Shown here: positions 39,537 through 46,123 of the stretch, in pieces | How positions within the stretch are numbered: position 1 is the stretch's first letter | Layout: every line of letters starts with the position of its first letter | Assembly: GCA_944324915.1 (NCBI GenBank) | Contig: CALUYD010000013.1 | Coordinates: forward strand, 1 to 46,123 | Reading direction: 5' to 3' | Source: Candidatus Gastranaerophilales bacterium | GTDB taxonomy: Bacteria > Cyanobacteriota > Vampirovibrionia > Gastranaerophilales > Gastranaerophilaceae | Length of the DNA stretch: 46,123 bases | Position numbers and translations under genes: made by a program | Notes under the pieces: model-generated | The model's database searches: none | What the model was told of the DNA's origin: nothing | Seen by the model: the letters and a program-made list of their open reading frames with translations, nothing else

Positions 39537-40199
39537 TTAATCGTTTTGGAACATTGCGCGTTGTGCTGCAACGCCAAAAGGATAAGCGTTTTTATCTGTA
39601 ATAATAATAGGAAATACATCCAATATTCTAGTACCGCTTTTTGCACCAGGAACTTTATATGAGCCTGCGGTTTTTCTTGGGTTTGGTCTTCTTTGTCCGT
39701 TAACATCAACAACAACAAGACAAGGTTTATCGTATGTATTACCTTCTAAATCTTCAACTTTTCTTCCTGGAGTTGCGCATTTTCCGTTTGTAATAGAGAA
39801 AGTTCCACCCATAGCTTGGTTTGGTGTTGTTGGAAATTCATATCTCATACCGTCAGCTGTGAAAAATGCAAAATTTGAAGTGTTACCCCAAGCAAAATCA
39901 TCAGAGGTTGAGATAATGCTCATTCTGTTTTTAAACATTTCAAACAGGCTATCTTCAGCAGTTGGATTATCCATATAACCTGCTTCAATTGGGCCGTATC
40001 CATCAAGCGCTATGTTGAGCTCAATAATTTGGTTTAGCGTAGTTAGAGCTTTTTTAAGAGCGGATTTGTATTCGTGTTGTTCTGTATTAATTAAAATCGC
40101 AGGAATAGTTAATGCTGCGATAACGCCGATAATTATAAGGGTTATCAACGCCTCAGCCAATGTAAAAGCTTTTTTTGTTTTAGTTGATTTATAAATCAT
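39537..40199 (-). CDS. Type II secretion/type IV prepilin with Ala at -1
   Basis: A 220-residue prepilin-like protein. A longer basic leader (MIYKSTKTKKA) is cut at A|FTLAE, followed by a hydrophobic helix (ALITLIIIGVIAALTIPAIL) and a soluble domain that includes two cysteines (about residues 145 and 160) and an EGNTYDKPCLVVVDVNG segment typical of pseudopilins that bind or display a domain. Alanine, not glycine, precedes the cut site. It is not in an operon with the prepilin at 37683. The ATG at 40199 has no clear ribosome-binding site. Confidence 0.85.
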   Translation of the reverse strand: MIYKSTKTKKAFTLAEALITLIIIGVIAALTIPAILINTEQHEYKSALKKALTTLNQIIELNIALDGYGPIEAGYMDNPTAEDSLFEMFKNRMSIISTSDDFAWGNTSNFAFFTADGMRYEFPTTPNQAMGGTFSITNGKCATPGRKVEDLEGNTYDKPCLVVVDVNGQRRPNPRKTAGSYKVPGAKSGTRILDVFPIIITDKNAYPFGVAAQRAMFQND

Positions 40200-43439: not shown

Positions 43440-44561
43440 TTAACATTTGTAGTATTTACCGTTATTTTGAAGAATTAATCCTCTTATTTCTAATTCTGTA
43501 AGTGCAATCATTAATTCTGACGTATCTATGTTTATAACACTCATTATCTCATCAAAAGATTTTGCTTCAATAGATATTATATCTAAAACTTTTTTTTGAG
43601 AATTGTTTAAATTTATTTTTTGCTCATTTTTTTCGGACATTATTTCCCAATTTAGATGATTTATTATATCTTGCCCGTCTATTGCTATACTTGCGCCTTG
43701 TTTTATTAAATGATATATGCCTTCGGTGTTTGGGTTTAAAATATTTCCTGGCATACACATAAGCTCTCTATTATAGTCAAGTGTGAGGTTTGCGCTAATC
43801 ATAGCTCCTGATTTCATTTGAGCTTCAGCAACTAGTGTCCCTTTAGACATTCCTGTTACAATCCTATTTCTTTGAGGAAAATTGTGTCCCATAGGAGGGG
43901 TTTTTAGAGGGTATTCGCTAAAAATTGCCCCCGCTTTATTGATAATATCTTCATAAATTTGTCTATTTTGACTTGGATATACAATATCCAAACCACAACC
44001 AATTACGCCGATTGTTTTTATATTATTTTTAATTGCGCTTGTATGAGCTTGTGCATCAATTCCGTACGCAAGCCCTGAAACTATTGTGATATTTGTGTCT
44101 TTGAAAAAACTTATTATTTTATTTAGTGCTAATTTTGCCTCAACTGAAGCATTTCTTGAGCCTACTATTGCTAGTGTGCAATCGTATGAAATATCTTCTA
44201 AGTTTCCTTTGTAATATAAAGAAATAGGGTAATCCGGAATTTCTTTTAATAAGGGTGGATATTTTTCATCTTCTATCGTTAAAAGTTTAACATCTTTATC
44301 TAAGAATGCTTTTGTGCAGCATTCATCAATATCCAGCTTTGATTTTTGAGATAAAAAATTTCTTGGTATAGATAAATCTTCCTTTTTGCAAAATTCGCTT
44401 AGTTCGTTTTTATCACATTGCCAAGCTCTTTTAATATCAAAATCAAAATATTCTAAGAGTTTTGTTTTGAAAATTGTTTTGGTATTTAAATAACTAAAAG
44501 CGGCGTAATATTTTGCTTTTTCGTTATTTTCCGTATCCAATTTCATTTGTATGTTTTTCAT
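43440..44561 (-). CDS. dprA: DNA processing protein DprA
   Basis: Loads RecA on incoming single-stranded DNA during natural transformation, about 373 residues. The Rossmann core has LAIVGSRNASVEAK, VSGLAYGIDAQAH, GVIGCGLDIVYP and FPQRNRIVTGMSKGTLVAEA. The C terminus is a DprA-type winged helix (about 315-373). I choose the ATG at 44561; a longer reading to 44600 would run through the transglycosylase terminator. The ATG lacks a Shine-Dalgarno, and a weak TAAACT lies 7 nt upstream, so a leaderless start is possible. It heads the dprA-topA-aroE run. Confidence 0.94.
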   Translation of the reverse strand: MKNIQMKLDTENNEKAKYYAAFSYLNTKTIFKTKLLEYFDFDIKRAWQCDKNELSEFCKKEDLSIPRNFLSQKSKLDIDECCTKAFLDKDVKLLTIEDEKYPPLLKEIPDYPISLYYKGNLEDISYDCTLAIVGSRNASVEAKLALNKIISFFKDTNITIVSGLAYGIDAQAHTSAIKNNIKTIGVIGCGLDIVYPSQNRQIYEDIINKAGAIFSEYPLKTPPMGHNFPQRNRIVTGMSKGTLVAEAQMKSGAMISANLTLDYNRELMCMPGNILNPNTEGIYHLIKQGASIAIDGQDIINHLNWEIMSEKNEQKINLNNSQKKVLDIISIEAKSFDEIMSVINIDTSELMIALTELEIRGLILQNNGKYYKC

Positions 44562-44578
44562 AAAAAATAGTTTAGCAT

Positions 44579-44608
44579 AAAAAACCCTTGGTTTTGCCAA
44601 GGGTTTTT
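44579..44608 (-). terminator. Intrinsic terminator after lytic transglycosylase
   Basis: Stem cccttgg/ccaaggg with a 5-base loop flanked by A and T runs. On the minus strand it directly follows the transglycosylase stop codon and precedes dprA. Confidence 0.92.
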
Positions 44609-44609
44609 G

Positions 44610-45113
44610 TTATAAGGTTTCTGATATAATTGCTTGCGTTGTCTCATCTGCTTTGAAGTCGTTATATTCTCTTTTAACATTCTTTATAAAGCATTTTGTT
44701 GCGCCAAAAGGAGGAATTCCGTTGTATTTTGCAACATTTCCGGGACCCGCATTATATGCCGCCAGAGCTAAATCCATGGAGCCATATTTTTTATACAGCA
44801 TTTGATAATATTTTAGCCCGCCTTCGATGTTTTCGCTTACGATATAAGGGTTAACACCAAGTTTTTTAGCTGTTGAAGGGGTTAATTGATATAAACCGAT
44901 AGCACCTCTTGAGCTTTTTGCACTTGTATTAAAGTTTGATTCGATTTTTGCTATGCTTAGTGCTATATGGGGGTCTACACCAAGTTTTTGAGCTGTTTTT
45001 ACAATAAGTTTTTTAGCATTTTCTTGTGGCGATTGGGAAGCAAATGCTGTGTTAGGAGCAATTAAAGCAACGCAAATAGCTACTAACAAAGTTTTGACTA
45101 GCTTTTTCGTCAT
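44610..45113 (-). CDS. Lytic transglycosylase, SLT domain
   Basis: A 167-residue exported muramidase-like enzyme that cleaves peptidoglycan glycan strands. A signal peptide (TLLVAICVALIAPNTAFAS) precedes an SLT domain with the catalytic glutamate in SIAKIESNFN, followed by GAIGLYQLTPSTAKKLG, the GGLKYYQ segment and LALAAYNAGPGNVAKYNGIPP. I choose the ATG at 45113, where gagga lies 8-9 nt upstream; an upstream in-frame ATG would place a polar stretch before the signal peptide. Terminated by a strong hairpin. Confidence 0.93.
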   Translation of the reverse strand: MTKKLVKTLLVAICVALIAPNTAFASQSPQENAKKLIVKTAQKLGVDPHIALSIAKIESNFNTSAKSSRGAIGLYQLTPSTAKKLGVNPYIVSENIEGGLKYYQMLYKKYGSMDLALAAYNAGPGNVAKYNGIPPFGATKCFIKNVKREYNDFKADETTQAIISETL

Positions 45114-45307
45114 AAAATAATCCTCATTTTTGTATTGGACAGGGATAAAAAACTTTTTATAAGTCACAAATCCCAAGTTCGATATTAATATACCACAGAT
45201 ATATTATTTTTGCAACCCATGGTGTAGCTTGTGTAGCTGAAACCTTTATAAATAGGGCATTGTATATTATTATATTTGTAGTATTTATTATAAATTTAAT
45301 TCAAAAC

Positions 45308-45337
45308 TTGCTAAAAAATGTATGCTTGTGTTAGAAT
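45308..45337 (+). promoter_or_regulatory. Promoter of tRNA-Ser
   Basis: TTGCTA (308-313), an 18-nt spacer and TAGAAT (332-337), with transcription expected near 45344, about 8 nt before the tRNA. Confidence 0.6.
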
Positions 45338-45351
45338 TTAAGATAGCAAAT

Positions 45352-45440
45352 GGAAAAATGGCCGAGTGGCTGAAGGCGGCACCCTGCTAAGGTGTTAGGT
45401 GGAGTAATCTGCCTCGAGGGTTCGAATCCCTCTTTTTCCG
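45352..45440 (+). tRNA. tRNA-Ser (GCT)
   Basis: An 89-nt class II tRNA with a long variable arm. Acceptor ggaaaaa pairs with tttttcc, with discriminator G. Anticodon stem gcacc/ggtgt encloses loop ctgctaa, giving anticodon GCT. The T loop gttcgaat is present. Its last 12 bases are repeated 196 bp downstream. Confidence 0.96.
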
Positions 45441-45589
45441 AATTAAAAAAGAACCCTTTTGGGTTCTTTTTTAATATTTGATTAAACTAGCAAGTCGAAC
45501 CCGAGAGGCTTGCCGAGAGGGGCGAATCCTGTGTGGCTGTTTGCGAGTTTATCGAGCAAATACAGCCTCAGATGCAGCGAGCGTAAATT
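45429..45589 (+). repeat. Tandem repeat copy 1 (tRNA-Ser 3' end plus hairpin region)
   Basis: A 161-bp unit beginning within the tRNA-Ser 3' end (cctctttttccg). It covers the terminator hairpin and a GC-richer segment of about 95 bp with the inverted repeat ggctgtttgc/gcaaatacagcc. It is repeated at 45625-45786 with one single-base insertion. No reading frame runs through it. Confidence 0.9.
45445..45472 (+). terminator. tRNA-Ser terminator
   Basis: Stem aaaaaagaaccc/gggttctttttt with a 4-base loop and T-run, directly after the tRNA. Confidence 0.93.
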
Positions 45590-45624
45590 TCTTGGACGTT
45601 AGTCCATAGAAATTAGCGAGAGTG
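45582..45624 (+). other. Hairpin in the unique link between repeat copies
   Basis: The bases joining the two copies form a stem aatttct-tggac/gtcca-t-agaaatt with loop gtta and one bulged base. This sequence occurs only between the copies. Confidence 0.6.
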
Positions 45625-45786
45625 CCTCTTTTTCCGAATTAAAAAAGAACCCTTTTGGGTTCTTTTTTAATATTTGATTAAACTAGCAAGTCGAACCCGA
45701 GAGGCTTGCCGAGAGGGGCGAATCCTGTGTGGCTGTTTGCGAGTTATATCGAGCAAATACAGCCTCAGATGCAGCGAGCGTAAATT
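45625..45786 (+). repeat. Tandem repeat copy 2
   Basis: The second copy, offset by 196 bp from the first. It starts with the same 12 bases that end tRNA-Ser, without the rest of the tRNA, then the terminator and the same GC-richer hairpin segment. It differs by one inserted base near 45745. Confidence 0.9.
45641..45668 (+). terminator. Duplicated terminator in repeat copy 2
   Basis: Same hairpin and T-run as at 45445-45472, carried in the second repeat copy. Confidence 0.85.
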
Positions 45787-45933
45787 CATTATTGTACTTC
45801 ATTAAAAGAGCCTGAGGCAATTTTAATATTTGATAAAGCTGAAAAATATTATTCTAAAATTATAAATTAATTTAGAATGTTAAAATTTTAAAAAGTAGTT
45901 TCTCTGTTTTAAAATTTGAAATATAATAATCCT
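45787..45933. other. Gene-free AT-rich spacer
   Basis: No reading frame or RNA gene was seen. A short match to the repeat (ttttaatatttgat, 45821-45834) suggests a third, decayed copy. gcctcag in copy 2 and ctgaggc (45811-45817) form a 7-bp inverted pair. Confidence 0.4.
45922..45927 (+). promoter_or_regulatory. -10 box of the last gene, leaderless
   Basis: TATAAT followed by 6 nt (aatcct) and the ATG at 45934, with no Shine-Dalgarno. Confidence 0.55.
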
Positions 45934-46123
45934 ATGAAAAAATTTATCATAATCACAGTTATTATTCTTATTTATGTAGTTCCTCTATCTTTTCCTGAAG
46001 TTCGCAATTCAGTTAAAGAGCAAATACAAAGCGCTATAATGACTGTTAAAAATGAAAATGGTAAATGGGTAAAAGTTAGCGACAATATTTATCTAGATAC
46101 TTCTTCAATTTCTAAAACAAAAT
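45934..46123 (+). CDS. Exported protein, 3' end cut by window edge
   Basis: Only the first 63 codons are visible. A hydrophobic N-terminal segment (FIIITVIILIYVVPLSF) indicates a signal peptide or anchor. It is followed by a short spacer and NGKWVKVSDNIYLDTSSISK. The W-x-K-V..NIYLDTSSI pattern resembles the start of surface-adhesin protein E-like domains, in which a tryptophan and a YLD/YID motif open the fold; this is tentative. A leaderless-type -10 box lies 6 nt before the ATG. The gene follows the tRNA-Ser repeat region. Confidence 0.6.
   Translation, partial: MKKFIIITVIILIYVVPLSFPEVRNSVKEQIQSAIMTVKNENGKWVKVSDNIYLDTSSISKTK

Follow-up and report, generated by a model that had tools for sequence, protein, structure and literature searches.

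The DNA that follows the tRNA-Ser(GCT) gene in the stretch analysed here (the window: 46,123 nucleotides, contig C13 of a 36-contig, 1.8-Mb Gastranaerophilales genome labelled G000) appears to be a small array of structured, non-coding tRNA-linked repeats (TLRs), and units of this kind are probably non-autonomous mobile elements residing at the 3′ ends of RNA genes, a reading to which we assign a probability of about 0.78. Evidence comes from the anatomy of the array itself, from related units with different bodies and different tails behind other RNA genes of the order, and from comparisons of filled and empty sites. Gastranaerophilales, an order in Melainabacteria, are represented here by draft assemblies in many contigs, and most of the named ones are MAGs.

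The host gene of the array (45352..45440, forward strand; ARAGORN and Rfam RF00005) does not encode CCA, and the base directly after it is the first base of unit 1. This unit (45441..45636, +) is complete, measures 196 bp and consists of a terminator, a three-hairpin body and a copy of the tRNA tail. An intrinsic-terminator-like hairpin, an inverted repeat with 15-bp perfect arms, lies directly 3′ of the tRNA gene (45442..45475, +) and is followed by hairpin 1, the head, with its T-arm-like sequence (45495..45525, +), and hairpin 2 (45527..45579, +), both from predicted folds. Hairpin 3 (45582..45617, +), with the conserved CGTAAATTTCT..AGAAATTAG, is delineated by an alignment, a covariance model (R1) and a pair count. 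The unit closes with a copy of the final 12 bases of tRNA-Ser, CCTCTTTTTCCG (45625..45636, +). Unit 2 (45637..45786, +) opens with its own terminator-like inverted repeat (45638..45671, +) and is truncated within hairpin 3. The direct repeat comprises two parts, 45424-45549/45620-45745 (126 nt, 98%, spacing 196) and 45550-45589/45747-45786 (40 nt, 100%, spacing 197); compared base by base, the two units are identical over 109 nt, differ by one inserted base and then agree up to 45786. Elsewhere in the window, a 220-aa open reading frame on the reverse strand (39537-40199) has a prepilin-like N-terminus (KKAFTLAEALITLIIIGVIAALTIPAI).

Chance is excluded as the source of a 150-nt repeat at about 99% identity. 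The tandem repeat described in an earlier note on this DNA, said to start with the last 12 bases of tRNA-Ser(GCT) and to have a period of 196, is borne out base by base, and the same holds for the terminator within the repeated unit and for the GC-richer hairpin segment (0.507 in the body compared with 0.261 and 0.218 in the two flanks). Tandem Repeats Finder reported nothing at this array, presumably because fewer than two full copies are present, whereas a separate repeat search does detect it. A short third match, which had been taken to suggest earlier rounds, is real but weak (45821..45840, +; 90% of 20 nt, equivalent to the segment behind the terminator); it is plausibly the remnant of a third unit, although an older round is unproven. 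Given that units 1 and 2 are almost identical, unit 2 is most readily explained as the product of a subsequent duplication in place.

An assembly error, raised in the earlier note as a possible undoing of the repeat, is extremely improbable: several contigs of this and related genomes do end at tRNA genes, but the two copies in the window differ from each other, and other genomes have independent arrays within long contigs, as in G020, where an independent tandem pair is located within a 188,799-bp contig. Many of the contig ends of G000 (C1, C6, C13, C15, C19, C20 and C31) lie no more than 90 bp from a tRNA gene. We do not count such ends as a sign of collapsed arrays, as identical tRNA copies would also explain them.

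Copies of a gene's own tail recur in the same genome. The surroundings of 41 tRNA genes and the tmRNA gene were read (42 genes, 38 with at least 100 nt of flank), and in 8 of the 38 the final 10 bases of the gene recurred exactly within 450 nt downstream, compared with 3 of 1548 cross pairs when the tails of other genes were put to the same test. In G098, an assembly of 5 contigs, the corresponding counts were 2/31 and 6/926, indicating that arrays are not equally common everywhere. With one mismatch allowed, own-tail copies follow the tmRNA gene in 5 of 25 genomes of an order-wide sample and in 8 of 11 genomes of genus g36. Across Gastranaerophilales, related units of 100-250 bp, none containing a gene, lie behind Ser, Gly, Leu, Val, Ala, Lys and Glu tRNAs and behind tmRNA, with tails specific to the host gene at Ser-GCT, Ser-CGA, Ser-TGA, Gly, Leu, Val, further tRNAs of the own genome and tmRNA. 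The bodies can be sorted into type A, which is that of the window, types B and D (loci L018, L016, L037, L103 and L026), type C (L034, L042 and L048), types E and Gt (L107, L043, L158, L170, L185 and L249) and type F (L158 and others); these follow a common plan and partly share the head hairpin, with no single sequence in common. The copied tail measures 12 nt in type A, about 10 nt (plus CCA) in type B, 11 nt in type C and 16 nt in type Gt. Two of the tRNA surroundings in G000 deserve separate mention. At L034 (contig C31), an open frame that begins with ATGGTTGCAAGTCAAGTTCAAAAAGAG lies beyond the array, at about +225 from the tRNA. At L055 (contig C6, reverse strand), an interrupted copy of tRNA-Ile stands about +51 to +175 behind tRNA-Ile, the interruption being a hairpin of about 43 nt in the anticodon arm (GAGCACTCTG-CCGAGCGAAATC..GATTTCGCGAGAGGT-CTGATAA).

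The window's own type has relatives behind many RNA genes. Searched at the DNA level, the unit matched 5 of the 28 genomes of the genus, and model R1, built on hairpin 3 from 8 sequences, gave 14 matches in 8 of these 28. Twelve of the 14 are positioned 3′ of a tRNA gene (Ser-GCT, Ser-CGA, Ser-TGA, Leu, Val or Gly), one is located at a contig end and has a tRNA-like tail (L033), and one is weak and unrelated (L027). In each case read, the matched unit ends in the tail of its own tRNA, except at L012, which has no tail copy; the tails differ by host, being CCTCTTTTTCCG at Ser-GCT, CCACTTCCTCC at Ser-TGA, TTCCGCTCCA at Gly and TCAACGCCCACCA at Val. Over the family, R1 matched 8 of 239 genomes. 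In genera g36 and g26 the type A unit is found behind tmRNA, and in G065 two R1 matches occupy a contig end with no recognisable RNA gene. Bar contig ends and one chance match, type A is located at RNA gene ends only. Searches of the kind that the earlier note had proposed for the hairpin returned other copies, so that a hairpin present only here is not what is observed, and the suggestion of a structured non-coding element or repeat family spreading beside tRNA genes gains support from these relatives behind many tRNA and tmRNA genes. At the Ser-GCT site itself, whole or partial units are present in G000, G013, G020 and G006, and decayed units in G001, G003 and G002, among the 28 genomes of the genus. 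Because the window's unit is also present at tRNA-Ser(GCT) in G013 (87% over 43858-45565), its insertion there is not very recent; no close match to this locus in an empty state was identified.

Further afield, an exact pattern of 20 bases taken from the body of the window's unit occurred in 0 viral contigs and 0 GTDB contigs. A pattern for hairpin 3 occurred in 22 stretches of GTDB contigs, 13 of which are real by their flanks (7 titled Gastranaerophilales, 2 Galligastranaerophilus, 1 Scatousia and 3 uncultured bacterium), so that with this one pattern, in GTDB contigs, no element sequence was found outside Gastranaerophilales. The other 9 GTDB stretches and both viral stretches with the pattern are unrelated in sequence and were set aside as chance, as was a weak, 49-base match to a plasmid of Exiguobacterium. 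The unit had no match in phage collections, and no Rfam family matched the unit bodies in the window region and the further loci scanned.

Judging from sequence comparisons, several of the unit types look mobile. Within G000, type B bodies at tRNA-Val and tRNA-Leu align over ~240 bp with few differences, some of which are compensatory changes in stems, and each body is accompanied by the tail of its own tRNA. Type F, which across the order occurs in 53 of 286 genomes, representing 13 of 50 genera, is identical at 162 of 167 positions (97%) between G000 and G230, a member of another genus, whereas the tmRNA genes of the same two genomes are identical at only 287 of 398 positions (72%). Type F starts were counted over loci L193-L222, with at most 2 rows per locus and excluding rows without an F start: in 14 of the 25 rows the start lies no more than 4 nt behind a tRNA or tmRNA gene (tmRNA in 7, Lys and Leu in 2 each, Ala, Ser and Glu in 1 each), in 8 directly behind another tail copy, and in 3 behind a previous F-like body. 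Genus g7 offers an empty and a filled site for comparison. The tmRNA gene of G201 has its native CCA and terminator behind it. That of G070 is separated by a unit from a second copy of its final 16 bases, and this displaced copy keeps the native CCA and terminator seen in G201. On the upstream side of the tmRNA site the two genomes can be aligned for over 1300 bp, on the downstream side for hundreds of bp, and the difference between occupied and empty sites amounts to one unit. Genomes of genus g36 differ in how the units behind tmRNA are ordered, the order being A-Gt in G091 and Gt-A in G172 and G155, and likewise F-A in G230 and A-F in G062.

These comparisons bear on the simplest account of the array, in which slippage or unequal recombination duplicated the tRNA tail together with the DNA downstream of it and nothing is mobile. 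Such a duplication would explain the step from one copy to two in the window, is in keeping with the near identity of units 1 and 2 and can recur at any tRNA. However, related bodies lie behind different RNA genes and carry the tails of those genes, and the identity of bodies between genera is far above that of the host genes. We therefore consider it very unlikely that local duplication accounts for the units as such.

Another alternative is descent from an integrase island. The simple attL/attR pair of an excised island, as entertained in the earlier note, does not fit, because the unit between the tails itself recurs and has no integrase. More generally, the array could be the relic or attachment pair of a tyrosine-integrase island, with the unit as leftover attP-arm DNA mobilised in trans. 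The 3′ ends of tRNA and tmRNA genes are classical targets of integrases, as is generally known and as stated in PMC9897764, and a trans-acting site-specific recombinase is one possible motor. G000 contains 4 matches to PF00589, none of them within the window's array, which say little because such genes are very common. Against descent from an island, no integrase gene is present in any unit read; the tail follows each target while the body stays constant, for which exchange at a shared core alone is insufficient; and the bodies resemble conserved folds rather than arm sites. On balance, we regard this alternative as unlikely.

The right end of type F departs from the tail copies described above: mostly, it consists of the fixed ATTATCTCC and one base fitting the target, with no long target copy, and in the own genome the right end is target-like, GCCATCTCCA. 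Thus, one rule of tail duplication does not cover all types. Furthermore, covariance model R2 gave 11 F-like matches in G000, spread over the genome also away from RNA genes. Because F-like sequences occur in such places too, the family of structured repeats could be a wider one, with the units at RNA genes as one of its branches. F-like tandem mosaics are found on contigs C1, C2, C4, C8 and C12 of G000 (L274, L275 and L277-L280), and several F-like repeats in this genome start directly behind the stop codons of protein genes. At L276 (G000, C11:33660-33812), an F-like unit stands between a copied tRNA 5′ end and the complete tRNA, the copied part comprising the 5′ end and its upstream sequence (AAGTTTGTGGGCCTGTGG), that is, a duplication on the 5′ side.

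A single unit of the window folds better than shuffled sequence (z -3.0), and type F allowed a count of covariation over 15 sequences and 33 pairs, with 500 shuffles. In this type, 98.2% of cells are paired and 16 pairs have changed on both sides, compared with a shuffled mean of 7.2, none of the 500 shuffles reaching 16 and slid controls giving no more than 5. This is good evidence that the fold of type F, as RNA or as single-stranded DNA, is under selection. For hairpin 3 of the window the signal is weak, with 96.3% of cells paired and 2 pairs changed on both sides, a value reached by 113 of 500 shuffles. RNAalifold returned no consensus structure for the full type A alignment, because the middle hairpins do not align.

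A further alternative is that the units are useful small RNAs, transcribed together with tRNA or tmRNA, maintained by selection and disseminated through homologous recombination and gene conversion rather than as elements in their own right. The covarying structure of type F is compatible with this, and relatives in E. coli, the 5S-linked TLRs between T1 and T2, are transcribed, processed and bound by Hfq and CsrA according to PMC8144298. Conversely, the presence of the units is patchy, they decay and are reordered between close relatives, F-like copies are also found behind protein genes, and it is not easy to see how homologous recombination would bring the same body to unrelated tRNAs. We assign this alternative a modest share of the probability, roughly one chance in five, without preferring it.

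Mobile, non-autonomous TLRs thus remain our preferred reading. Under this scenario, the units would insert at the 3′ ends of RNA genes, one type just behind base 73 and before the encoded CCA. The host gene would stay whole, because its tail stands on both sides of the unit, and inserted units would often bring a terminator. Subsequently, recombination between identical units or tails could multiply them locally. Possible candidates for the mover include a recombinase that acts in trans on a short core, a transposase that duplicates its target, a Cas1-like enzyme, and an RNA step. Given that a unit from base 73 to base 73 equals the RNA that would be released by tRNA 3′ processing, an RNA route is conceivable. 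A bolder and rather doubtful extension would unite the TLRs of E. coli, including the rrnB T1-T2 piece, and the units of gut Melainabacteria as one broad class of minimal mobile elements, built of structured non-coding sequence, whose insertion point is precisely the processed 3′ end of an RNA gene and which possibly move via RNA and reverse transcription.

The kind of repeat is known from E. coli, and the titles and abstracts of the open-licence literature searched describe neither TLRs outside Enterobacterales, and specifically their occurrence in Gastranaerophilales, nor their movement. In Gastranaerophilales the units are diverse, vary between relatives and can be nearly the same at different genes, which makes filled and empty sites usable, and what TLRs are and whether they move becomes a testable question. 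By the same token, tRNA ends in such genomes should be treated with caution, as they may be misassembled or called as tRNA fragments.

Three groups of better-known elements share features with these units. Integrase islands are kilobases in size and carry an integrase gene; they have in common with the units described here the target site and the duplicated gene tail, but the latter span 100-250 bp and contain no gene. Casposons are large, encode Cas1 and have inverted ends; the point of resemblance is that some of them go into tRNA 3′ ends and duplicate the target, whereas the unit here has no room for a Cas1 gene. REP/ERIC/RUP-like repeats are small, folded, non-coding and multi-copy, as are the present units, and the F-like copies are also intergenic like them; by contrast, the window's type was found only at RNA gene ends, contig ends and one chance match apart.

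The closest counterparts are found in E. coli, where repeats behind tRNA-Tyr have been known since 1978. PMC8144298 (2021), through which we cite the earlier TLR literature (Rudd 1999; Egan and Landy 1978), reports 22 TLRs at ten E. coli loci, whose 3′-terminal 18-19 bp are the same as those of the tRNA or rRNA upstream, notes the conservation of 5S-linked TLRs in Enterobacterales and gives no known function for TLRs so far; the words 'mobile' and 'integration' are absent from its text. In E. coli K-12, the tRNA-Tyr of tyrV is followed by three 178-bp units, with exact 19-nt copies of the tRNA end at +160, +338 and +516. RtT-like units were found in 4695 of 5426 E. coli genomes, the other 731 being without them at the sensitivity used, and a positive genome contains 1 to 14 places (median 3). 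At rrnB (L291), the 5S tail GAACTGCCAGGCAT is copied at +155. The widely used rrnB T1-T2 terminator cassette contains the 5S-linked repeat, with the copy of the 5S tail between T1 and T2.

By sequence, the Gastranaerophilales units are not RtT, because the Rfam RtT model (RF00391) fails to match them: it gave no match in window positions 45000-46123 at E up to 10, none on 14 Gastranaerophilales loci at E up to 0.5, and 0 on 10 Gastranaerophilales loci at E up to 1, where the E. coli locus L192 gives 4. In the reverse direction, a covariance model of five Gt units (R3), searched in 97.7 kb of E. coli DNA, had as its best match one of the four RtT units, on the right strand and in the right place; this match is weak (13.5 bits, E 0.054-0.057), the next-best scored 8.2 bits, and the other three RtT units fell below background. 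R3 did not match the body of the 5S-linked E. coli repeat. The likeness of the head hairpin compared with RtT in this search (TGAGAAC..GGTTCGA..GAGCG) could reflect common descent or, through T-arm mimicry on both sides, convergence.

By anatomy, in contrast, the Gastranaerophilales units are TLRs. The window's unit stands directly behind a tRNA gene, and its 3′ end is identical to the end of that gene over 12 bp, the identity being 10-16 bp in the other types. The RtT repeats (tyrT/tyrV, rttR, RF00391) are likewise tandem units behind a tRNA that end in a copy of its 3′ end, although the tail is 19 nt in E. coli and 12 nt in the window's unit. Finally, RrA, RrB and RrF (rrnA, rrnB and rrnD) differ in having 5S rRNA as the host gene, but display the same order of parts as unit 1, namely, RNA gene end, terminator, body, tail and terminator.
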